Positions 35,335 to 51,400 of a DNA stretch of 64,000 nt are shown here, piece after piece. This stretch comes from Halorubrum aquaticum. Its GTDB lineage: Archaea; Halobacteriota; Halobacteria; Halobacteriales; Haloferacaceae. Position 1 is the stretch's first letter. Each line of letters begins with the position of its first letter. The notes beneath the pieces were generated by a model. The model was not told the origin of the DNA and did no database searches. It saw only the letters and a list, made by a program, of their open reading frames with translations. Position numbers and translations under genes: made by a program. The DNA lies in the NCBI RefSeq assembly GCF_900113615.1, contig NZ_FOPZ01000014.1, positions 1 to 64,000 on the forward strand, in the 5' to 3' direction.

Positions 35335-36585
35335 GTGGTCTCGACGCCGTCGATAGCGGGGAGCGATTCGGGGATCGTCCGGGAGCGTCCCTTCCAGTTG
35401 TTGCTCCTCATCAACGTCCTCCCGCCGCTCGGGACCGCGCTCCTCTCGCCCGTGTTGGGGTCGCTCGTCGAACCGCTCGGCGCGTCTCCAGCGAACATCG
35501 GGCTGTTGATGTCGGCGTTCACCGGGCCGGCCGTGGTCGTCATCCCGATCGCCGGGGTGATCGCCGATCGGTACGGGAGACGGCCGGTCCTCGTCTTCGG
35601 GCTGGTGTGGTTCGGGCTGACCGGAACCGCGATCGCGTTCGTCTCGACGTTCGCGGCGGCGCTCGCGCTCCGGCTGCTCCAGGGGATCGGGTTCGCCGCG
35701 CTCACGCCGATCATCATCACGAGCCTCGGTGACCTCTACTCGGGGACGAAGGAGGCGACCGCACAGGGGCTGCGATTCACCGGATCGGGGCTCTCACAGA
35801 CGGTCTTCCCGCTCATCGCGGGCGTCCTCGTCGGGTTCGCGTGGCAGTACCCGTTCCTCCTGTACGCCATCGCGTTCCCGATCGCCGCGGTCGTCTACCT
35901 CCGGTTCGAGGAGCCGATGGACGAGGACGCCGCGAACGGGTCGGACGAGGACCTCCGGACGCAACTGGCCGACCTCCGGACGCTCGTCGCCCACCGGCGC
36001 GCGTGGACGATCGTGGTCGCTCGCGGGACCGCGAACCTGGCGTGGTTCGGCTTTCTCACCTACAACTCGATCGTCGTCGTCGACGTCCTCGGCGGGACGC
36101 CGGCACAGGCCGGGGTCCTCGCCGCGCTTGCCAGCCTCTCGTACGCGCTGGCGGCGACCCAGACCGGACGGATCTCCGCCGCCTTCGACGACCGGCTCTA
36201 CCCGCTGATCGCGGCGAACGTCTCGATAAGCGCCGGTCTCGGGCTCGTCTTCCTCGCGCCGGCGCTGCCCGTCGCGGCCCTCGGCGTGGTCCTGATGGGC
36301 GCCGGCTTCGGGCTCGTGTTGTCCGTCTATCGGAGCATCGTCACGGACCTCGCGCCGACCGCGCTGCGCGGCGGGCTCGTGAGCCTCAGCGAGGGGACCG
36401 GTCGCGCGAGCGCGACGCTGACGCCGATCCTCATGGGCGGGGCCATCGCGGTCGCGAGCGCACGGATCGAGTTCGTTCCGGCCGTCAGGCTCGTGGGCGT
36501 CGCGACCGGGGTCGTCGGCGCGGTCGTCGGGATCGGCTGTCTGGTGTTGATGAGCCGAGCGCCGCCGATCCGGATGGACGGGTGA
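35335..36585 (+). CDS. MFS transporter
   Basis: A 416-residue transporter with twelve predicted helices. The MFS signature between helices 2 and 3 is GVIADRYGRRPVLV, and the first half also has LRLLQGIGFAALTP. A charged loop near residues 195-215 divides the halves. The substrate is unknown. The GTG at 35335 is used; a later start at the second codon block is possible, since no ATG precedes the first helix in this frame. Confidence 0.85.
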   Translation: MVSTPSIAGSDSGIVRERPFQLLLLINVLPPLGTALLSPVLGSLVEPLGASPANIGLLMSAFTGPAVVVIPIAGVIADRYGRRPVLVFGLVWFGLTGTAIAFVSTFAAALALRLLQGIGFAALTPIIITSLGDLYSGTKEATAQGLRFTGSGLSQTVFPLIAGVLVGFAWQYPFLLYAIAFPIAAVVYLRFEEPMDEDAANGSDEDLRTQLADLRTLVAHRRAWTIVVARGTANLAWFGFLTYNSIVVVDVLGGTPAQAGVLAALASLSYALAATQTGRISAAFDDRLYPLIAANVSISAGLGLVFLAPALPVAALGVVLMGAGFGLVLSVYRSIVTDLAPTALRGGLVSLSEGTGRASATLTPILMGGAIAVASARIEFVPAVRLVGVATGVVGAVVGIGCLVLMSRAPPIRMDG

Positions 36586-36666
36586 CCGCCCCTCCCCTCA
36601 CTCCGACGGTTCCCGTCCCCCGCCGCGACCGCGGGTACTTTGTCCCCCCGCGTCGACGCCCGGACG

Positions 36667-37638
36667 ATGAGCACGGAGCCGACCCCCACCGACATCGCGG
36701 TGCTCGACCACGACGCACACGGGATCCCCGCCGCCGACTACGCCGAGATCCTTCGGGAACGCCTCCCGAACCACACCGTCCGTCTCGCGCGGACCGCCAC
36801 GGAACGGCGGGAGTACGTCGCCGAGGCGACGGTCGTCGCCGGCGGGACCGTGACAGACGAGGACCTCGCGATCGCCGAGAACCTGCGGCTGTTCGCGTGT
36901 AACGCCGCCGGCGTCGACCACCTCCCGCTCGAGGACCTGGCCGACCGGGGGGTCGCCGTCACGAACGCCTCCGGCGTCCACGGTCCCAACATCGCCGAGC
37001 ACGTGCTCGGGTGGGTGCTCACGTTCGTCCGGCGGCTCGACGAGGGGATCCGGCGGCAGGAGCGTCGGGAGTGGCGGCGGTTCCAGTCGTTCACCGAGCT
37101 GGCGGGCAGCACCGTCACGGTCGTCGGCCTCGGATCCATCGGCGAGGCGATCGTCGAGCGCTTCGAGGGGTTCGACGTGGAGACGGTCGGCGTCCGCCAC
37201 ACGCCGGAGAAGGAGGGCCCGACCGACGAGGTGTACGGATACGACGACCTCCAGGAGGCGCTGGTACGAACCGACGTCTTGGTCCTCTCGTGTCCGCTCA
37301 CGGAGACCACCGAGGGGCTGATCGGCGAGGCCGAATTCGACGCGCTCCCGACCGACGCGATCGTGGTCAACATCGCCCGCGGGGGCGTCGTCGACACGCC
37401 CGCGCTCGTCTCCGCGCTCAAATCGGGCGCGATCCACGGCGCGGCCCTCGACGTGACCGACCCGGAGCCGCTCCCGACCGACCACGACCTGTGGGGGTTC
37501 GGGAACGTCCTCCTCACCCCGCACGTCTCCGGACACACCCCGAAGTACTGGGAGCGACGAGCCGATATCCTCGTGGAGAACGTGGAGCGGGCCGCCGAGA
37601 CGGGCGAGTACGACGACCTCCGGAACCGGGTCGCTTGA
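36667..37638 (+). CDS. D-2-hydroxyacid dehydrogenase
   Basis: A 323-residue NAD(P)-dependent oxidoreductase of the D-isomer family. The nucleotide-binding motif is VVGLGSIGEAIVERFEGFD, followed by SCPLTETTEGLI, the catalytic Arg motif NIARGGVVDT, the Glu in ALDVTDPEPLP and the catalytic His in LTPHVSGHTP (about residue 285). It would reduce a 2-oxoacid to a D-2-hydroxyacid or the reverse. The ATG at 36667 was preferred to one nine codons upstream. It stands alone between an MFS transporter and a surface protein. Confidence 0.9.
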   Translation: MSTEPTPTDIAVLDHDAHGIPAADYAEILRERLPNHTVRLARTATERREYVAEATVVAGGTVTDEDLAIAENLRLFACNAAGVDHLPLEDLADRGVAVTNASGVHGPNIAEHVLGWVLTFVRRLDEGIRRQERREWRRFQSFTELAGSTVTVVGLGSIGEAIVERFEGFDVETVGVRHTPEKEGPTDEVYGYDDLQEALVRTDVLVLSCPLTETTEGLIGEAEFDALPTDAIVVNIARGGVVDTPALVSALKSGAIHGAALDVTDPEPLPTDHDLWGFGNVLLTPHVSGHTPKYWERRADILVENVERAAETGEYDDLRNRVA

Positions 37639-40825: not shown

Positions 40826-41986
40826 CTACTGGTACGCCTGTATCCCGGTGAGGTCCTCGCCGAGGATGAGCGTGTGGATGTCGTGGGTTCCCTCGTAGGT
40901 GTAGACGGTCTCCATGTTGGTCATGTGTCGCATCGGAGAGTAGTCGGCCGTGATCCCGTTGCCGCCGAGCATCTCGCGGGCGATCCGCGACTGGTCGCGG
41001 GCCATCCGGACGTTGTTGCGCTTGGCCATCGAAACGTGTTGCGGGCGCATCTCGCCCGCTTCCTTGAGTTCGGCGAGCCGGTGAGCGAGGAGCTGGGCGA
41101 GCGTGATCTGGGTGGCCATCTCCGCGAGCTTGCGCTGCTGGAGCTGGAAGCCGCCGATGGGTTTCCCGAACTGCTCGCGGTCGGTGGCGTACTCGCGGGC
41201 GGTCTCGAAGCAGTCCTGTGCCGCGCCGACCGCGCCCCACGCGATGCCGTAGCGCGCCTGCGTCAGACACGACAGCGGGCCCTTCATCCCGGAGACGCCG
41301 GGCAGGCGGTTCTCCTCGGGGATCCGGGCGTCCTGAAGGGCGATCTCGCCGGTGATCGACGCGCGGAGGCTGAGCTTCTCGTCGATCTTGTTGGTCGTCA
41401 CGCCGTCGCGGTCGGTCTCGACGAGGAACCCGCGGACTGGCGTGTCGTCCTCGCTGTGGTCCTTCGCCCAGACGACGGCGACGTCGGCGATCGGGGAGTT
41501 CGTGATCCACGTCTTCGAGCCGTTCAGGACGTACTCGTCGCCGTCCTTCTCGGCGCGGGTCTCCATCGCCGAGGGGTTCGAGCCGTGTTCGGGCTCGGTC
41601 AGGCCGAAACAGCCGACGGCCTCGCCCTCGCCGAGGGCGGGCAGCCACTCCTCCTTCTGTTCGTCGCTGCCGAACGCGTGGATCGGGTACATCACGAGCG
41701 CGCCCTGGACGCTCGCCATCGACCGGAGCCCCGAGTCACACGCCTCCAGCTCGCGCATCAGGAGCCCGTAGGAGGTCTCGCTGACGCCCGGTAGCCCGTA
41801 CCCCTCGAGGTTCGGCGCGTAAAATCCCATCTCGCCCATCTTCGGGATGATCTCCGTCGGGAAGGTGCCCTCGATCCAGTGTTCTCCCATGTCGTCGATC
41901 TCGCCCTCGACGAACGAGCGCGCGGAGTCGACGAGCAGTCGTTCCTCTTGGGAGAGCGACGCCTCCAAATCGAAATAATCGATCAT
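40826..41986 (-). CDS. Acyl-CoA dehydrogenase (glutaryl-CoA dehydrogenase-like)
   Basis: A 386-residue FAD enzyme. The sequence CFGLTEPEHGSNPSAMETRA and TWITNSPIADVAVVW (in parts) are the family signatures near residues 127-165. MLGGNGITADYSPMRHMTNMETVYTYEGTHDIHTLILG contains the catalytic Glu region (YEGTHD). The set of motifs and the 386-residue length most resemble the glutaryl-CoA dehydrogenase branch, which also decarboxylates. The ATG at 41986 is supported by GAATAAATAAC (42008-42018) 27 bases upstream. The enolase-superfamily gene pair begins beyond it on the same strand. Confidence 0.86.
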   Translation of the reverse strand: MIDYFDLEASLSQEERLLVDSARSFVEGEIDDMGEHWIEGTFPTEIIPKMGEMGFYAPNLEGYGLPGVSETSYGLLMRELEACDSGLRSMASVQGALVMYPIHAFGSDEQKEEWLPALGEGEAVGCFGLTEPEHGSNPSAMETRAEKDGDEYVLNGSKTWITNSPIADVAVVWAKDHSEDDTPVRGFLVETDRDGVTTNKIDEKLSLRASITGEIALQDARIPEENRLPGVSGMKGPLSCLTQARYGIAWGAVGAAQDCFETAREYATDREQFGKPIGGFQLQQRKLAEMATQITLAQLLAHRLAELKEAGEMRPQHVSMAKRNNVRMARDQSRIAREMLGGNGITADYSPMRHMTNMETVYTYEGTHDIHTLILGEDLTGIQAYQ

Positions 41987-42066: not shown

Positions 42067-43284
42067 TCAGAACCCGTCGGTTCCCTCGAGGAGGTGCTCG
42101 TCGACGACGTCCATGTCGAGTTCGATCCCCAGTCCCGGCGCTTCCGGAACCGCGATCCGGCCGTCCTCGATGAGCGGCTCCTCCCGGACGAGCAGGTCGT
42201 CCCACCAGTCGACCTCGAGTGCGTGGTACTCCAGCAGGTCGAAGTTGGGAGTCGCCGCGCCGAGGTGGACGCAGGCCATCGTCCCCACGGGGCTACAGAC
42301 GTTGTGCGGGGACATCGGCATGTAGTTCTCCTCGGCGCGGTCGGCGATCCGCATCGTCTCGTGGAGCCCGCCAACCGTGGTCGGGTCGGGCGTGACGACG
42401 TCGACGCCGTGGTCGTAGATGAGATCCGAGAGCTCGAAGACGCGGAACCGGTTCTCGCCGGTCGCGACCGGTGTCCGCGTCGCCTTCGTCACCTCCTTCT
42501 GTGCGTCCATGTTCTCCGGCGGCACGAGGTCCTCCAGCCACATGAGGTCGAACTCCTCCAGTTCGTGTGCCAGCCGCTTCGCGCTCTCGACGGAGTAGTC
42601 CCAGTGGCAGTCGAACGCGAGGTCGACGTCGTAGCCGATCTCCTCGCGAACCGCCTCGACGATCTCCCGTTTCTCGCGGATCGCCGCGTTCGTCAGCCGG
42701 CCGTTGTACGGGTCGTTCTCGTTGTCGGCGGGCAGGTCGAGGTCGAACTTCAGCGCCGGAAAGCCCATGTCGACGACGCGCGCGGCCTCGGCGGCGTACG
42801 CCTCCGGGGAGTACGCCTCGGCCTCGGCGTAGGCGGTCGCCCCGTCCTCGACCGCGTACGCCTCGCCGGCGTGACAGTCGCAGTAGATCCGGACCTCGTC
42901 GCGGTACTTCGAGCCGAGCAGCTGGTAGACGGGCAGACCCAGTATCTTTCCGGCGGCGTCGAGTAACGCGATCTCGATGCCGGATGCCGCGGTGACGACC
43001 TTCCCCGTGGTGCCGCCGTGGCCGGACATCTCCTGGAAGATATACCGGACGAGCCGCTCGACGTCGAGCGGGTTCTCGCCGACCAGAAAGCGGTTCGCGT
43101 ACTCGACGATCTCCGGGATCCCGCCGCCCCGATACGACTCGCCGATGCCGGTGACGCCGGCGTCGGTCTCGACCTTGATCAGGTTCCACTCGAAGTTGCC
43201 CTCGACGACGCAGGCGTCGATGCTCGTGATCTCCACGTCCCGCTCCGGGTCGCGAACGTCGATCCGGTCCGAGTAGTCCCTCAT
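42067..43284 (-). CDS. Enolase-superfamily sugar acid dehydratase
   Basis: A 405-residue enzyme of the mandelate racemase/muconate-lactonizing type that should remove water from an acid sugar. The barrel shows ALKFDLDLPA (second-strand Lys), the metal ligand FDCHWDY, then LEDLVPPENMDAQ, the metal ligand ATGENRF, VTPDPTTVGG, and SPHNVCSPVGT with a candidate catalytic His. These closely resemble the gluconate/galactonate/mannonate dehydratase group known in haloarchaea for gluconate and xylonate. It follows the other enolase-superfamily gene with an ATGA overlap, so they are translated together. The exact substrate is not determined. Confidence 0.83.
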   Translation of the reverse strand: MRDYSDRIDVRDPERDVEITSIDACVVEGNFEWNLIKVETDAGVTGIGESYRGGGIPEIVEYANRFLVGENPLDVERLVRYIFQEMSGHGGTTGKVVTAASGIEIALLDAAGKILGLPVYQLLGSKYRDEVRIYCDCHAGEAYAVEDGATAYAEAEAYSPEAYAAEAARVVDMGFPALKFDLDLPADNENDPYNGRLTNAAIREKREIVEAVREEIGYDVDLAFDCHWDYSVESAKRLAHELEEFDLMWLEDLVPPENMDAQKEVTKATRTPVATGENRFRVFELSDLIYDHGVDVVTPDPTTVGGLHETMRIADRAEENYMPMSPHNVCSPVGTMACVHLGAATPNFDLLEYHALEVDWWDDLLVREEPLIEDGRIAVPEAPGLGIELDMDVVDEHLLEGTDGF

Positions 43285-44387
43285 GCGCTGAACTCCTCCA
43301 GGGCGTCCTTATCGAGCGTGACGCCGTGGCCCGGCTCCTGGGGCATCGCGATCCGACCGTCGTCATCGGGGGCGAGCGGCTCCGCGACGACGTCGTCGAA
43401 CGCCTTCACGTCCATGTCGCGGTAGAAGTACTCGATCCACAGCCCGTTGTCTATCGCCCCGAGCAGCGAGGTGTGGACGTTCCAGTTGTAATGGGGCGCG
43501 ATCGGCACGTCGTAGGCGGCGGCGTAGTTCGCGATCCGGAGCCACTCCGTGATCCCGCCGCAGACCGTCACGTCCGGCTGGAGGACCGTCGCCGCGCCCG
43601 TGTCGTGGAGCCGCGCGAAGTTGTGGCGGGTCCCCTCCAGTTCGCCGGTGGCGACCGGGTAGTCGATGGCGTCGTTCACCTCCGCCATCGTCTCCACGCG
43701 GTCGATCATCACCGGCTCCTCGATGAAGTACGGGTCGTACGGCTCGAACGCCCGGCAGGCGCGGACCGCCTCGGTCGTCGACTCCCAGACGCCGTTGGCG
43801 TCGAGGAGCAGCGTCGTCTCCGGACCCACCTCGTCGCGGACGGCGGCGACGCGCTCGACCTCCTCGTCCACAGAGAGGCGGCCCACCTTCATCTTCACGA
43901 CGTCGTGTCCCTCGTCGACGTACCGACGCACCTCGCCGCGTAACGCCTCGTGACCCTTCTCATCGCGGTAGTAGCCCCCGCTTCCGTAGGAGGGGACCGA
44001 CTCGCTGTTGCCGCCGAGCAGCTTGTACAGCGGCTGGTCGGCCGCCTTCGCCTTCAGGTCCCAGAGCGCCATGTCGACGGTGGAGATGGCGCGTAACATG
44101 ACGCCCATCCGCCCGATCTGGACGTTGCCCTCGTACATCTCGCGCCAGAGCCGGGTGGTGTCCCGCGGGTCCTCGCCGCTCACGATCGGCTCGAGCATCG
44201 ACTCGACCGCGTCGGCGACGAGGTGGGCCCCCTCGTATCCCAGCGAGTAGCCGACACCCTCGAGCCCGTCGGCGGTTCGAACGTACGTTATCGCGTGGTC
44301 CCGGTACGTGAGCGTCCGGTTGGAGAAGGAGACGGGCGACTCCAACGGGAGCTCGATCGGGAACGACTCGACTTCGACTATCTCCAT
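43281..44387 (-). CDS. Enolase-superfamily enzyme, MLE/MR type
   Basis: A 368-residue enzyme with a capping domain and barrel. Catalytic features are KMKVGRL (K-x-K of the second strand), the metal ligands LLLDANGVW and YFIEEPVMID, PVATGELEGTRHN, LQPDVTVCGG, and APHYNWNVHTS with a seventh-strand His. The K-x-K plus His arrangement points to a racemase or acid-sugar dehydratase of the mandelate racemase group. Its stop overlaps the next gene's start (43281-43284). A TATA element at 44411 gives a leaderless start at 44387. The substrate is unknown. Confidence 0.82.
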   Translation of the reverse strand: MEIVEVESFPIELPLESPVSFSNRTLTYRDHAITYVRTADGLEGVGYSLGYEGAHLVADAVESMLEPIVSGEDPRDTTRLWREMYEGNVQIGRMGVMLRAISTVDMALWDLKAKAADQPLYKLLGGNSESVPSYGSGGYYRDEKGHEALRGEVRRYVDEGHDVVKMKVGRLSVDEEVERVAAVRDEVGPETTLLLDANGVWESTTEAVRACRAFEPYDPYFIEEPVMIDRVETMAEVNDAIDYPVATGELEGTRHNFARLHDTGAATVLQPDVTVCGGITEWLRIANYAAAYDVPIAPHYNWNVHTSLLGAIDNGLWIEYFYRDMDVKAFDDVVAEPLAPDDDGRIAMPQEPGHGVTLDKDALEEFSA

Positions 44388-44550: not shown

Positions 44551-45867
44551 ATGGAGTTTCCCGACCGCAGCGACGTCGACCACCTCATCGACGCACAGCC
44601 GCTCCCGTCGTTCGCGCGGGTTCGATACGACCCGCCGAGCGAGACGCTCGCGGACCCGATCGGCTCGGCGCGCTCGGAGCTCGACCGGCTCGACGTCGAC
44701 GATCTCGAACCGGGAGACACCGTCGCGATCGGCGTCGGCAGCCGCGGTATCGACCGGATCGACGAGATCGCCGCCGCGGCCGTCGACTGGGCCGACTCGA
44801 AGGGATACGACCCCGTCGTCGTGCCCGCGATGGGGAGCCACGGCGGGGCGACCCCGGAGGGACAACTGGAGGTGCTCGAGGCGCTCGGGATCGACGAGGC
44901 GAGCGTGGGGGCTCCCATCGACGCCCGGATGGACGCGGAGGCGCTGGCGACGGTGACCGTCGGCGACACGGACGTGCCGGTGTACTTCTCGACGGCGGCA
45001 CTGGAAGCCGACGCGGTCCTCGTGGTGAACCGCGTGAAGGCACACACCAACTTCAGCGGGCCGATAGAGAGCGGGCTCGCGAAGATGACCGCCGTCGGCC
45101 TCGGCAAACAGCGCGGCGCGAAGTCGTTCCACTCGACGGCCATCGCGGAGGGGTACGTCGAGACGCTGACGGCCGCGCTCGACGTCATCGAGTCGGCGGT
45201 GCCGCTGCTCGGCGGGCTCGCCCTCGTCGAGAACTTCGAGGAGGAGCTCGGCCACGTCGAGGCCGTGCCGGCCGGGTCGTTCCTCGACCGTGAGCCCGAG
45301 CTGTTGGAGCGCGCCTACGAGGGGATGCCGATGCTTCCCGTCGAGGAGATCGACCTCCTCGTCGTCGACGAGATCGGCAAGGAGATATCGGGAGCCGGGA
45401 TGGACACGAACGTGATCGGCCGCTACCGCGTCCTCAACGCGCCCGACCCGGAGACGCCCGACATCGACCTGATCTACGTGCGCGGGCTCACCGAGGCGAC
45501 GAAGGGGAACGGCAACGGCATCGGGCTCGCGGACCTCACCCGGCGGGCGGCGATCGACCAGCTCGACGTGAAGAAGACGTACGCGAACGCGCTCACGAGC
45601 GGATCGCTCGCGAAGTCGAAGCTCCCCGTGGTCGCGCCCGACGACGAGTTCGCGCTCCGGACCGCGCTGGCCGCCCTCGGCGGCTACGACCCCGAGACGG
45701 TCCGGATCGTCTGGATCCGGAACACCGAGGACCTCGGGGAGCTCCACGTCTCGGAGGCGGTCGTCGACGACCTCCCCGAGGCGGCGACGGTGCGGGAACG
45801 CGACGTGACGGTGGGATTCGAGGACGGAACCGCGCGGATCCCGGAGCCGTCGTCGCCGGAACGGTGA
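44551..45867 (+). CDS. LarA-like (DUF2088) racemase-family protein
   Basis: A 438-residue protein whose N-terminal half resembles lactate racemase LarA, which uses a nickel-pincer nucleotide. Counterparts of the cofactor and catalytic residues are visible: His97 in GSHGGATPEG, His165 in KAHTNFSG, Lys178 in SGLAKM and His194 in KSFHST. In LarA the Lys carries the pincer cofactor and the His residues bind nickel or act as acid/base. The second half holds ISGAGMDTNVIGRYR and GNGNGIGLADLT. It is divergent from the enolase-superfamily operon and likely epimerises a 2-hydroxyacid in the same pathway. Genes for cofactor synthesis (larBCE) are not in this window. Confidence 0.78.
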   Translation: MEFPDRSDVDHLIDAQPLPSFARVRYDPPSETLADPIGSARSELDRLDVDDLEPGDTVAIGVGSRGIDRIDEIAAAAVDWADSKGYDPVVVPAMGSHGGATPEGQLEVLEALGIDEASVGAPIDARMDAEALATVTVGDTDVPVYFSTAALEADAVLVVNRVKAHTNFSGPIESGLAKMTAVGLGKQRGAKSFHSTAIAEGYVETLTAALDVIESAVPLLGGLALVENFEEELGHVEAVPAGSFLDREPELLERAYEGMPMLPVEEIDLLVVDEIGKEISGAGMDTNVIGRYRVLNAPDPETPDIDLIYVRGLTEATKGNGNGIGLADLTRRAAIDQLDVKKTYANALTSGSLAKSKLPVVAPDDEFALRTALAALGGYDPETVRIVWIRNTEDLGELHVSEAVVDDLPEAATVRERDVTVGFEDGTARIPEPSSPER

Positions 45868-45962: not shown

Positions 45963-46013
45963 ATGGTTAGAGAAACGGATCCCGCGGACGCAACGATAGA
46001 GGAGTCACGATGA
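45963..46013 (+). CDS. Possible 16-residue leader peptide
   Basis: ATG to TGA encodes MVRETDPADATIEESR. Its stop codon overlaps the ATG of the cupin gene (ATGA, 46010-46013), a classic translational-coupling arrangement. A TATA-like box lies 29 bases upstream. The GGAGT at 46001-46005 could serve the cupin start. The function, if any, is unknown. Confidence 0.35.
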   Translation: MVRETDPADATIEESR

Positions 46014-46357
46014 AGCCGGTCGCCTTCGACGAGGCCGAGACGTACGAGCCCGACGACGGGTGGCGGCGGGTCGCGATGGCCGGCAGCGACCGGTTCTCCT
46101 TCGAGTGGTTCGAGAAGCCGCCGGGGCACAGCTCGCCGATGCACGACCACGAGAACGAGCAGGTGTGTCTCTGTCTCGAGGGCGAACTCACCGTGGCGAC
46201 CGAGGACGACTCGGTCACGCTCGAGAAGAACGACTCGGTGCTGCTCGAGTCGAACGAGGCCCACCGGGTCGAGAACACGGGCGACGAGCTCGCGGTCGGC
46301 CTCGACGTGTTCGCGCCGGGTCGGTCGTTCGACTTCTGGACGGACCGGGAGGAATGA
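46010..46357 (+). CDS. Cupin domain protein
   Basis: A 115-residue single-domain cupin. Cupin motif 1 is HSSPMHDHENEQVCLCLEGEL (quoted as SPMHDHENEQV) with metal ligands His, His and Glu, and motif 2 is LLESNEAHRVENTG with the final His. It could be a small isomerase or oxygenase or a ligand sensor. Its stop overlaps the start of the fumarylacetoacetate-hydrolase-family gene (ATGA), so they are one unit. An upstream 16-codon frame overlaps its start. Confidence 0.83.
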   Translation: MKPVAFDEAETYEPDDGWRRVAMAGSDRFSFEWFEKPPGHSSPMHDHENEQVCLCLEGELTVATEDDSVTLEKNDSVLLESNEAHRVENTGDELAVGLDVFAPGRSFDFWTDREE

Positions 46358-47175
46358 AGTACCTCGCACGCGCTTCGACCGGGGAGCCGCTGCTCGGCGA
46401 CGACGAGGGCTTCGTCCCGCTCGGCTCGGTCGAGCCCAACCTCGGGAGCGTCCGCGAGGCGCTGCCGCGAGCGGCCGACGGGACCCTCGGCGACGTCGAC
46501 GACGCGACCGCCGAGCCGATCCCGGCGGCGGACCTGACGCTCGCCGCGCCCCTCGAGCGGTTCGGCAAGCTCTGGGGGATCGGGCTGAACTACGAGGAGC
46601 ACGCGGGCGACCTCGACGAGGACCGACCCGAGGAGCCGGCGAGCTTCATGAAGCCCTCGACGGCCCTCACCGGGCCGGGCGGTCCGATCCGGCTGCCGCC
46701 GACCGAGCGGAGCGAGCGGGTGACCGCGGAGGCGGAACTCGCCGTCGTCATGGGTCGGACGTGCCGGAACGTCCCGGAAGCCGACGTCGACGACGTCGTC
46801 GCCGGCTACCTGCCGGTGATCGACATGACCGCCGAGGACGTCCTCCAGCGGAACCCGCGATTCCTCACCCGGGCGAAGAGCTTCGATACGTTCCTCGTTC
46901 CCGGCTCGACCATCGTCGTGCCCGAGGAGCCGCTCGACCTGTCGTCGCTGTCCGTGCGGACCGAGGTCAACGGCGAGGTCGAGGCCGAAAACGAGATCCG
47001 CAACATGCTGTTCCCGCCCGCGGAGATCGTCTCGTTCCACTCGGGCGTGATGACGCTCGAACCCGGCGACCTGTTCAGCACCGGAACCCCCGGTGCCGCG
47101 CCCATCGAACCGGGGGATCGGGTGCGTGCGGTCGTGGAGTCCATCGGGTCTGTCGACGCACCGGTGACGCGGTAG
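46354..47175 (+). CDS. Fumarylacetoacetate hydrolase family enzyme
   Basis: A 273-residue FAH-superfamily protein, a group of C-C hydrolases, hydratases and decarboxylases acting on oxo-acids. Visible metal-site regions are [33 protein letters not shown] (Glu ligands) and [11 protein letters not shown] (Asp ligand), followed by [11 protein letters not shown]. The tail has [15 protein letters not shown], the usual end. In sugar-acid pathways, such enzymes cleave or hydrate 2-keto-3-deoxy or 2,4-diketo acids made by enolase-superfamily dehydratases such as those nearby. The ATG overlaps the cupin stop. Confidence 0.87.
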
Positions 47176-47252: not shown

Positions 47253-47275
47253 CCGAACCCATGCCATCTATCCGC

Positions 47276-47704
47276 ATGTATCGAGTGCTGGTTCCCGTCG
47301 GCGACGACACGGAACGATCGATGGCCGCGGCGGAGGCCGTGAGCGGGCTCCCGAGCGCCGCCGACGAGGTCGAGGCCGTCGTGGTGAACGTCTTCGAGGA
47401 GTTCGACGTCACGGGCGAGGGCGGGCGGGTGGACTCCGAGGACGTCTGGGACGAGACCAACTATCCCGAAAGCGTCGACGCGGTCGTCGAACGCCTCGAG
47501 TCGGCGGGCGTGACGGTCTCGAAGCGGCGCGAACACGGCGACGTGACGAAGCGGATCCTCGCCGTCGCCGACGAGATCGACGCCGACGGGATCGTGATGG
47601 GCGGACGCAGACGGAGTCCGACGGGGAAGGTCCTGTTCGGGAGCACCACCCAGTCGGTGATGCTCTCCGCGGACTGCCCCGTGACGGTCGCGCTCACCGA
47701 TTGA
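47276..47704 (+). CDS. Universal stress protein, ATP-binding type
   Basis: A 142-residue UspA-domain protein beginning [15 protein letters not shown]. The ATP-binding signature G-x2-G-x9-G(S/T) is matched approximately by [20 protein letters not shown], and the protein ends [13 protein letters not shown], as family members do. In haloarchaea UspA genes often stand beside transporters and may sense their state through ATP. The TRAP transporter genes follow on the same strand. The start at 47276 rests on the TATA box at 47246. Confidence 0.9.
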
Positions 47705-47963: not shown

Positions 47964-49091
47964 ATGGCTGACAAAGACGTAAACCGACGGAAGTTCCTGT
48001 ACGGCACGGCTGCGGCGGGTGTAACGGGACTCGCCGGCTGTAGCGGTGGCGGCGGGGGCGGCGATGACGGCTCCGGCGACGACGGCTCCAGCGGCGACGA
48101 CGGCTCCGGCGACGGCTCCAGCGGCGACGGCTCCGGCGACGACGGAAGCGATGCGAGCCTGGAACTCCGCGTCGGGACGTCCGCCGGCGGGACCCAGGAC
48201 GTCGGGCTGGCGGTCGAGCGGGCCGTCAGCCAGGAGAGCGACACTCTGGAGTACTCGACGATCGAGAGTCCGGGGTACATCGGGACCATCTATCGGATGG
48301 CCCAGGAGCAGTTCAACGCCGGCATCACCGACAACAACTCGCTCAACAAGGCGCTCGACGAGACGGGCCAGTTCGCGGAGCAGGCGGTGTCGCGGATCCC
48401 CCAATACGGGTTCTCGGCGTTCCCGTACAGCATCTACATCGTCGCTCGTGACGGCACGGGCATCGAGACGTTCGACGACCTCGCCGGCGCGAACGTCTAC
48501 CCCGCCGAGCCCGGCTACTCGACGCGCGCGACGACGCTCGACGTCTGGTCACAGGACCCGACCGCGGACGTCTACGACCAGATGAACATCCAGGACATGG
48601 GCGTCGGCGACGCGCCCGGCGCGATGGAGGAGGGGACGATCGACGCCAGCATCGCGTACGGGACGCCGGGCGTTCGATACACCGGCTTCGTCCAGGAGAT
48701 GGCCTCCCGAATCGACCTCCACTACGTCGAGCCGACCGACGCGCTCATCGAGTCCGCGGAGTCGTTCGCGGGTGCCGGAACGACCACCACGAGCTACGAC
48801 GACTGGCCCATCGCGAACGCGGACATCGGGACCGACGAGGTGTTCACCTGGGACCTCGAGGTGCTCTACACGTTCAACCCCGAGGCCAACGCCGACGCCG
48901 TCTACGAGCTGTGTCGCGTCGTCGACGAGCACAACGACGTCGTGAACGAGGGCGAGGCCCAGTTCAACGACTTCGAGTCGACCGCCGACATGCTCGGATA
49001 CGCCCAGGAGCGGATCCCGGTCCACCCCGGCGCGGCGCAGTACTACCGGGACAACGACGCGTGGGACGACAGCCTCCAGGAAGGCGAGTAG
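47964..49091 (+). CDS. TAXI-family TRAP substrate-binding lipoprotein
   Basis: A 375-residue extracellular receptor. NRRKFLYGTAAAGVTGLAGC is a Tat signal with lipobox LAGC (Cys26). A Gly/Asp/Ser low-complexity linker (to about residue 60) keeps the receptor off the membrane. The domain (LELRVGTSAGGTQDVGLAV, FDDLAGANVYPAEPG and TIDASIAYGTPGVRY, in parts) matches the TAXI/TRAP binding proteins. It delivers an organic acid, probably a carboxylate, to the permease encoded next. It is the first gene of the transport operon. Confidence 0.9.
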   Translation: MADKDVNRRKFLYGTAAAGVTGLAGCSGGGGGGDDGSGDDGSSGDDGSGDGSSGDGSGDDGSDASLELRVGTSAGGTQDVGLAVERAVSQESDTLEYSTIESPGYIGTIYRMAQEQFNAGITDNNSLNKALDETGQFAEQAVSRIPQYGFSAFPYSIYIVARDGTGIETFDDLAGANVYPAEPGYSTRATTLDVWSQDPTADVYDQMNIQDMGVGDAPGAMEEGTIDASIAYGTPGVRYTGFVQEMASRIDLHYVEPTDALIESAESFAGAGTTTTSYDDWPIANADIGTDEVFTWDLEVLYTFNPEANADAVYELCRVVDEHNDVVNEGEAQFNDFESTADMLGYAQERIPVHPGAAQYYRDNDAWDDSLQEGE

Positions 49092-49166: not shown

Positions 49167-51158
49167 ATGGACACACAAGCGGAACACACGACCGGACCGT
49201 CGAGCTGGATTCGCGGCCTCGACGTCACCGTCACGCTCGCCGCCGTCCTCTTCTGGGCGATAGCGCTCGGCTGGATATACACGCAGACGTGGTCGCCCGT
49301 CAAGTACGGCGTGATCTTCGTCGGCGGCATCATGACGGTGTACGCGCTCAACGAGACGAAGGAATCGCTCGAGGAGGGAAGCTGGGTCGACGCCGCGGTC
49401 CTGCTTCCGGCCGCCGGCGTGTTGATCACGGCCTCGGCGTACTTCTTCGCGAACTTCGACACCGTCTACCTCCTGCGCCAGGGCTTCGCCACCCCCCACG
49501 AGTACATGCTCGCCCGGCTCGTCATCGTCTCGCTTCTGTACCTCACGTGGCGCGAGTTCGGGAACCTGTTCTTGGGACTCGTCATCGGCGTGATGCTGTA
49601 CGCGATCTTCGGCGACAGCGTTCCCGGCGTCCTCGGACACGCGGGGATGACCGAGTTGACGCTGCTTCAGGCGCTCGTCACCGACCTGTACGGGTTCTAC
49701 GGGTCGCTCACGCAGCTGACCGCGTCGTGGATCGCGCCGTTCCTGCTGTACGCGGGGCTGCTGTTCGCGTACGGCGCGTTCGATCTGATCCTCCGGCTCG
49801 CGATCGTCGCCGCCGGCCGGATCCGGTCCGGCGTCGCACAGACCGCCGTTCTCTCGTCGGCGGTCATCGGCTCGATCAACGGCTCCTACACCGCGAACGC
49901 CGCGATGACCGGGTCATTCACGATCCCGACGATGAAGGAGAGCGGGATGGCCGGCCACCGGGCGGCCGCCATCGAGGCGGTCGCCTCGACGGCGGGACAG
50001 GTGCTCCCGCCGGTGATGGGAGCGTCCGCGTTCGTGATGGCGTCGTACCTCGGCGTCGCGTACCTCAACATCGTCATCGCCGGGATGGTTCCCGCCGCGA
50101 TCCTGGTCGCGTCCATCGCCATCGCGGTCCACTACACCGCGATCAGCGACGCGAGCGACCAGGACATGGAGTTCTCCGAGTTCTTCGACGAGGAGATGAC
50201 CTCGAGCGAGAAGGTCATCGAGGGGGTTCGTTTCGGGCTCCCGTTCGGCGTCCTGATCTACTACCTCGGCATCGCCCAGTACACGGTGATGACCTCGGCG
50301 TTGTACACCGTCATCGCGATGGTCCTCACGGGCGTCCTGATGCCGCCGGTACAGCGGCTCGTCGACGGCTCCGAGACGACCTTCGTCACGGAGTTCGTGA
50401 CGCAGGTGAAGAACACGATACACGGGTTCCGCCGCGGGGCCATCATCCTCGCGCCGATCGCGATCATCCTCGTGGTGGTGAGCGGCGTCGTGAACCTCTT
50501 CTCGACGACCGGCGTCCCCGCGAAGATCGCGCTCCTGATGATCAACCTCTCCGGCGGCGTCCTGCTTTTCGCCGTGCTGCTCGGCATGGCGGTCGCCATC
50601 GTGATGGGCGTCGGCATGCCGACGGTCGCCGCGTACGTCATCGTGGCCATCCTCATCGTGCCGACGTTCGTCTCCGACTTCGGGATCGCCCGGGAGACGG
50701 CCCACTACACGATGTTCTACGCGGCGATCCTCGCCGGGATCACGCCGCCGGTGGCGACGGCGGCGGTGGTCGCGGCCGGGATAGCGGAGGCGAACTTCTG
50801 GCGGACCTGCGGGGCCGCCCTGAAGATCGCCGCGCCGCTCTTCGTCCTTCCCGTCGCGTTCGTCTACAACCCGGGGCTGATCTCGATGTCACCGGACGCG
50901 AACACCCTGTTCCTCGGGGCGCTCGTGATGATGGGCGCGATCACGATCATCTACGGTCTGAACTACCCGTTCGAGCTGTCCATCGGTCGGATCACGCTGG
51001 TTCGCGTCGGACTGACCGTCCTCGGCGTGCTGATCATGACGTATCCGGTACTCGTCCTGAAACTCGTCGGGATCGCCGTCTTCGTCGCCGTCTTCATCGG
51101 TGAGAAGGTGATGGTTCGCGGAATGGATCTCCCGTTCGGCTCGGGGGTGAACCAATGA
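49167..51158 (+). CDS. Fused TRAP permease (DctQM type)
   Basis: A 663-residue permease in which the small DctQ-like and large DctM-like subunits are joined, the usual form with TAXI receptors. Residues about 18-150 hold four helices (the Q part). From about 165 the M part follows with motifs SAVIGSINGSYTANAAMTGS, MGASAFVMASYLG and GVGMPTVAAYVIVAIL (in parts). It would import the ligand using a Na+ gradient, as in haloarchaea and known TRAP systems. It starts 75 bases after the receptor gene and overlaps the next small gene. Confidence 0.93.
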   Translation: MDTQAEHTTGPSSWIRGLDVTVTLAAVLFWAIALGWIYTQTWSPVKYGVIFVGGIMTVYALNETKESLEEGSWVDAAVLLPAAGVLITASAYFFANFDTVYLLRQGFATPHEYMLARLVIVSLLYLTWREFGNLFLGLVIGVMLYAIFGDSVPGVLGHAGMTELTLLQALVTDLYGFYGSLTQLTASWIAPFLLYAGLLFAYGAFDLILRLAIVAAGRIRSGVAQTAVLSSAVIGSINGSYTANAAMTGSFTIPTMKESGMAGHRAAAIEAVASTAGQVLPPVMGASAFVMASYLGVAYLNIVIAGMVPAAILVASIAIAVHYTAISDASDQDMEFSEFFDEEMTSSEKVIEGVRFGLPFGVLIYYLGIAQYTVMTSALYTVIAMVLTGVLMPPVQRLVDGSETTFVTEFVTQVKNTIHGFRRGAIILAPIAIILVVVSGVVNLFSTTGVPAKIALLMINLSGGVLLFAVLLGMAVAIVMGVGMPTVAAYVIVAILIVPTFVSDFGIARETAHYTMFYAAILAGITPPVATAAVVAAGIAEANFWRTCGAALKIAAPLFVLPVAFVYNPGLISMSPDANTLFLGALVMMGAITIIYGLNYPFELSIGRITLVRVGLTVLGVLIMTYPVLVLKLVGIAVFVAVFIGEKVMVRGMDLPFGSGVNQ

Positions 51159-51400
51159 GCTCGACGAAGGACTCCACCGAGGACCAGATCGACACGTCGA
51201 ACGTCGGCGGACTCGAGGAGATAATTCCGGAGCCGCTCATGCCCGCCTGGCGGCGGATCGAGTTGATCCAGCAGTTCCGCGAGACGCACGGGGACACCTA
51301 CGTGACGGTGCTCGAGGTGCTCACGGCGCTCGTCCTCGGCGTCGGCTACGCCTGGTGGGCGTACATCTACTTCTTCGGGAGCGGCGTCGTGACGATCTGA
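51155..51400 (+). CDS. One-helix protein in TRAP operon, unknown
   Basis: An 81-residue protein with a soluble acidic N-terminus (STEDQIDTSNVGG, then EIIPEPLMPAWRRIELIQQF) and one membrane helix near the C-terminus (TVLEVLTALVLGVGYAWWAYIYFFG). It overlaps the permease gene by ATGA, so its synthesis is coupled to the transporter. It may be an accessory subunit of the TRAP complex. I do not recognise a family. It is the last gene of the operon, 51 bases before a convergent small gene. Confidence 0.72.
   Translation: MSSTKDSTEDQIDTSNVGGLEEIIPEPLMPAWRRIELIQQFRETHGDTYVTVLEVLTALVLGVGYAWWAYIYFFGSGVVTI

Follow-up and report, generated by a model that had tools for sequence, protein, structure and literature searches.

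The open reading frame at positions 44551–45867 (+ strand) of the window, a 64,000-nucleotide stretch of DNA from Halorubrum aquaticum (contig C14 of genome G000), encodes a member of the LarA superfamily that belongs to the NF052515 branch, nickel-pincer isomerase group 22. The frame is complete, begins with ATG and specifies a protein of 438 residues. Its predicted activity, which we regard as very probable, is that of a 2-hydroxyacid isomerase dependent on the nickel-pincer cofactor (NPN). The explanation that we favour is a C2 epimerase or racemase that feeds a sugar-acid pathway similar to Route III, and a sugar acid is, overall, the probable substrate. The gene ties a LarA group without an assayed member to a specific, conserved catabolic cluster and thereby yields a short list of candidate substrates. 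Haloarchaeal nickel-pincer enzymes have been little studied.

An NCBIfam profile search matched the protein to NF052515 with 488.2 bits (E value 1.7e-146), covering model positions 1–388 of 392; the curated cut-off is 400 bits. The title of this family, "nickel pincer cofactor-dependent isomerase, group 22", names no substrate. A classification from 2020 distinguishes 25 groups of LarA homologues (PMC7583248). Number 22 is absent among the 13 homologues assayed in that work, and the NCBIfam numbering may differ from that list. Our search of the literature on group 22 found no assayed member, and we found no paper on a lactate racemase in haloarchaea, on an archaeal LarA with a sugar acid, or on NF052515 by name. 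When the PDB was searched by sequence with the protein, a 28-sequence profile and two diverged homologues, no LarA entry was retrieved; membership therefore rests on NF052515, the predicted structure and the residues. A PADLOC search gave no match.

Residues H97, H165, K178 and H194, together with R65, are invariant in an alignment of 28 homologues, two of them from Chloroflexi, down to 37% identity. When their profile was aligned with that of ten canonical LarA-type proteins from archaea, H97, H165, K178 and H194 paired with His108, His174, Lys184 and His200 of LarA. The earlier note had proposed exactly these four residues as nickel-pincer equivalents, and the loss of the Lys and His positions in close homologues, which it had named as the result that would speak against it, was not seen in the 28 sequences. 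The hhalign comparison of the group-22 and canonical LarA profiles gave an E value of 0.0014 with a low probability (17%), which is support and no proof alone. R65 occupies a place similar to that of LarA Arg75, but the profile alignment is gapped there. By analogy with LarA, Lys178 would be the covalent anchor of NPN, and His194 would be a nickel ligand. Proton-coupled hydride transfer would then invert C2 of a 2-hydroxy acid, and His97 and His165 would take turns as acid and base.

The LarA-like gene is divergent from two enolase-superfamily genes, as described from the sequence earlier, and both of their products contain the MR_MLE_N and MR_MLE_C domains. The start of the nearer one, acid-sugar dehydratase 1 (43281–44387, −), lies 163 bp from that of the LarA-like gene. 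A regulator site in this divergent promoter was sought by eye only, and a TATA-like stretch approximately 30 bp before the start was all that was seen. Dehydratase 1 has KxK and His motifs, and the profiles nearest to it, all below cut-off, are those of arabinonate and talarate/galactarate dehydratases. The gene of dehydratase 2 (42067–43284, −) overlaps it by 4 nt; this protein has DxH and His motifs, and galactonate dehydratase is its nearest profile, again below cut-off. The two motif sets possibly reflect complementary C2 preferences. An acyl-CoA dehydrogenase gene follows on the same strand (40826–41986; similar to FadE and glutaryl-CoA dehydrogenase, below cut-offs).

On the plus strand, the LarA-like gene is followed by a small cupin (Cupin_2; 46010–46357) and a FAH-superfamily hydrolase (46354–47175), which matches the HpaG and 2,4-didehydro-3-deoxy-L-rhamnonate hydrolase models below their cut-offs. 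A universal-stress-type protein, named from its sequence, belongs to the same gene run (47261–47704). Next come a TAXI-type TRAP solute-binding protein (47964–49091; TIGR02122, 85.9 bits against a cut-off of 84.35), a TRAP fused permease (49167–51158; TIGR02123, 373 bits) and a small ORF (51155–51400) that has no Pfam match and is conserved with the permease, all on the plus strand.

Conservation of these neighbors was counted in 37 orthologous loci (at least 60% identity and enough flank), many of which come from closely related Halorubrum, so that the counts are not independent. The FAH hydrolase is linked in 28 loci, dehydratase 2 in 27, dehydratase 1 in 25, the TAXI and TRAP permease genes in 26 each, the acyl-CoA dehydrogenase and the universal-stress-type protein in 21 each, and the cupin in 20. 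A short-chain dehydrogenase (SDR) gene is linked in 26 of the 37. In locus L008 and most relatives, it has the LarA-like gene on one side and the cupin or FAH gene on the other, unlike here: the SDR orthologue of H. aquaticum (74% identity) is unlinked and is found at G000:C23:22006-22800. At that place (locus L061), the SDR gene is beside one whose product resembles CoA-transferases in sequence. Several loci with LarA-like proteins of 53–60% identity keep links to the dehydratase, SDR, cupin or FAH genes, and TRAP genes were not seen near these loci.

The locus appears to sit in a conserved haloarchaeal sugar-acid breakdown cluster that resembles Route III, and the neighboring dehydratases and the conserved cluster support the acid-sugar context that had been claimed for it. 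In bacteria, the SDR/FAH route oxidizes and cleaves 2-keto-3-deoxy acids to pyruvate and glycolate or lactate (PMC6336799), and Haloferax converts rhamnose to pyruvate and lactate (PMC8305020). In the pathway that we propose, a sugar acid would be taken up by the TRAP transporter, and the LarA-type enzyme would epimerize it at C2, so that a second C2 epimer could enter the same oxidative pathway. The enolase-superfamily dehydratases would form the 2-keto-3-deoxy acid, the SDR would oxidize C4, and the FAH hydrolase would cleave the product to pyruvate and a small hydroxy acid. The dehydratases and the FAH hydrolase of this set are linked here and the SDR is not; equivalog models assign no functions to the set. 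Linkage of this kind, the adjacency of a group-22 gene to larB in locus L052, the co-occurrence of the family with larC and a neighboring nikR gene in one relative together suggest an NPN enzyme that works in the pathway. Points against it are an unconserved Lys298 position, cluster-bearing genomes that have no larB, and orthologues outside the pathway context. We put forward more tentatively the wider idea that a dedicated haloarchaeal NPN epimerase admits both C2 epimers to the SDR/FAH route and that paralogues are specialized for other sugar or hydroxy acids. Within the accessible part of the literature, we did not find an NPN-dependent entry step described for this route.

The enzyme might instead act at the other end of the pathway, as an NPN-dependent racemase of the lactate or glycerate that FAH cleavage yields, and so supply a linked D-2-hydroxyacid dehydrogenase. 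A gene of that dehydrogenase family (36640–37638, +) is linked to the cluster in 17 of the 37 loci, as is an MFS transporter gene (35335–36585, +). In Haloferax gibbonsii, a paralogue with 41% identity adjoins LUD-domain genes; in Haloferax volcanii, growth on rhamnose is impaired when LudBC, a candidate L-lactate dehydrogenase, is deleted (PMC8305020). That paralogue is, however, strongly diverged. The polar residues Thr166 and Asn167 directly follow His165, whereas Phe-Phe is usual at this place in lactate racemases (PMC11770544). Another diverged group-22 member adjoins genes for a four-carbon acid-sugar kinase and PdxA, and substrates probably vary between group-22 branches. We consider racemization of the end product unlikely and retain C2 epimerization of a sugar acid as the preferred reading.

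A different doubt concerns the family itself. One clan holds both DUF362 and DUF2088, the former name of the LarA family (PMC11770544), and the protein could be a DUF362-type member that shares the clan fold and does not use the nickel-pincer cofactor. Pfam barely passes it as DUF362 (PF04015; 24.2 bits against a gathering cut-off of 24.0) and scores it below the cut-off of Lar_N (PF09861; 14.6 against 23.3 bits), and many homologues are called "DUF362 domain-containing protein" in public records. A Lar_N search of the H. aquaticum genome gave no match and alone would mislead. Another haloarchaeal group-22 member, in genome G013, passes Lar_N with 31 bits, and the weak score here therefore reflects the sensitivity limit of the model and no missing trait. 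An AlphaFold2 model was built from the 28-sequence alignment (pLDDT 90.3, pTM 0.86). All of the first 19 Foldseek matches in the PDB are LarA-family structures. VIA-align, applied as a second look to the chains ranked by Foldseek, gave Z scores of 17.9–19.8 for 12 LarA-family entries and 6.1 for the next chain, a large gap in spite of that restriction. This comparison, which rests on a predicted model, helps to decide for LarA over the DUF362 name. Together with the invariance of all four cofactor and catalytic residues and the placement of larB and larE beside a group-22 gene in L052, the wide structural margin makes the DUF362-type reading highly improbable, even with two cluster-bearing genomes that lack larB. 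The LarA-like identity proposed in the earlier note is thus borne out by NF052515, the fold and the residues.

The cofactor genes are present in the genome. The window contains no larB, larC or larE, as had been stated, and a search of the genome located larB at G000:C10:87996-88640 (228.7 bits), larC at G000:C13:55458-56828 (400 bits) and larE at G000:C3:130609-131385 (294 bits). The possibility that the lar genes are absent from the genome, which would have counted against the assignment, is ruled out by these three matches. NF052515 is present in 129 of 292 Halobacteria genomes and larC in 245. The larC gene was found in 127 of the 129 genomes that carry the family and in 118 of the 163 that do not (Fisher p = 9e-11, uncorrected for kinship). 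Of the two family-bearing genomes without larC, G234 carries the other two cofactor genes, larB and larE, and G093 lacks them as well. In locus L052 (contig G234:C32), larB starts just after the end of the group-22 gene (499.8 bits), and larE comes next on the other strand. The three genes (L052:2282-5297) share a 5.8 kb contig with ORFs that look transposase-like by sequence.

No larB was found in two cluster-bearing genomes, G093 and that of Halobacterium sp. CBA1126 (locus L027), the latter searched for larB alone. The LarA-like proteins of these clusters (L053:7625-8923 in G093 and L027:224-1351) are 86% identical. Such clusters may hold an inactive passenger or an enzyme that uses a scavenged cofactor or some other supply. 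Haloferax volcanii has larBCE and a predicted or possible nickel-pincer enzyme, as noted in 2021 (PMC8305020). Group 22 is a candidate client of these genes, which were noted there without an assigned partner. The suggestion in the earlier note that such an epimerase would be new for haloarchaea is wrong at the family level, given the 129 genomes and the published larBCE.

The position that aligns to LarA Lys298 is Arg293, which is not conserved; Arg291, two residues away, is invariant. LarA homologue groups without a K298 equivalent are on record, and superfamily membership is therefore not ruled out by its loss (PMC7583248). The unconserved position and the invariant arginine beside it could point to an NPN-dependent enzyme that moves hydride elsewhere, in another isomerization or redox step, a possibility raised for groups in which the counterpart of H174 or K298 is missing (PMC7583248), but both catalytic histidines are kept, unlike in the single-histidine subfamily (PMC12611868), and we hold this reading to be highly improbable.

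Comparison with known systems places the protein further. It matches NF052515 group 22 over the full length and far above the cut-off, and adds to that family a strongly conserved acid-sugar neighborhood. LarA of Lactiplantibacillus plantarum (PDB IDs: 5HUQ, 6C1W) has the same fold (Z approximately 18) and the equivalent His108, His174, Lys184 and His200; the two differ in overall identity (approximately 13%), in the unconserved Lys298 position and in the polar residues after the second histidine here. The GntE D-gluconate 2-epimerases (LarAH groups 19 and 20) are likewise LarA-type epimerases of a sugar acid, but they form separate groups, and the histidine is usually followed by Glu-Val in them and by Thr-Asn here. 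The single-histidine LarA subfamily (PDB IDs: 9Q3J, 9Q3K), for which a carbohydrate context is suspected, is among the closest solved folds (Z 19.6–19.8). In that subfamily, Asn replaces the second catalytic histidine, whereas the group-22 protein keeps both. The Route III non-phosphorylative pathway, known from Herbaspirillum huttiense and from rhamnose and fucose pathways, follows the same logic of dehydratase, SDR and FAH-type hydrolase; the accessible part of its description contains no LarA homologue, and the SDR orthologue is unlinked in H. aquaticum.

Six orthologues (63–76% identical; loci L023, L030, L032, L034, L042 and L057) have no dehydratase, SDR or FAH genes nearby, and the enzyme is therefore not confined to the sugar-acid pathway. 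In Haloarcula salina (L023:6794-9308), the LarA-like gene follows an acyl-CoA dehydrogenase gene alone, an arrangement from which the link to that dehydrogenase may matter. Haladaptatus genomes have tandem pairs of diverged group-22 genes (L037:8001-10692, L038:8001-10680 and L039:8001-10680). The members of these pairs are approximately 40–44% and 53–57% identical to the window protein, and the pairs perhaps serve two substrates. In Salinigranum marinum, where the orthologue is 70% identical, nikR, the gene of a nickel-responsive regulator (L065:11684-12112), immediately follows the genes of the LarA-like protein, the SDR and the cupin.
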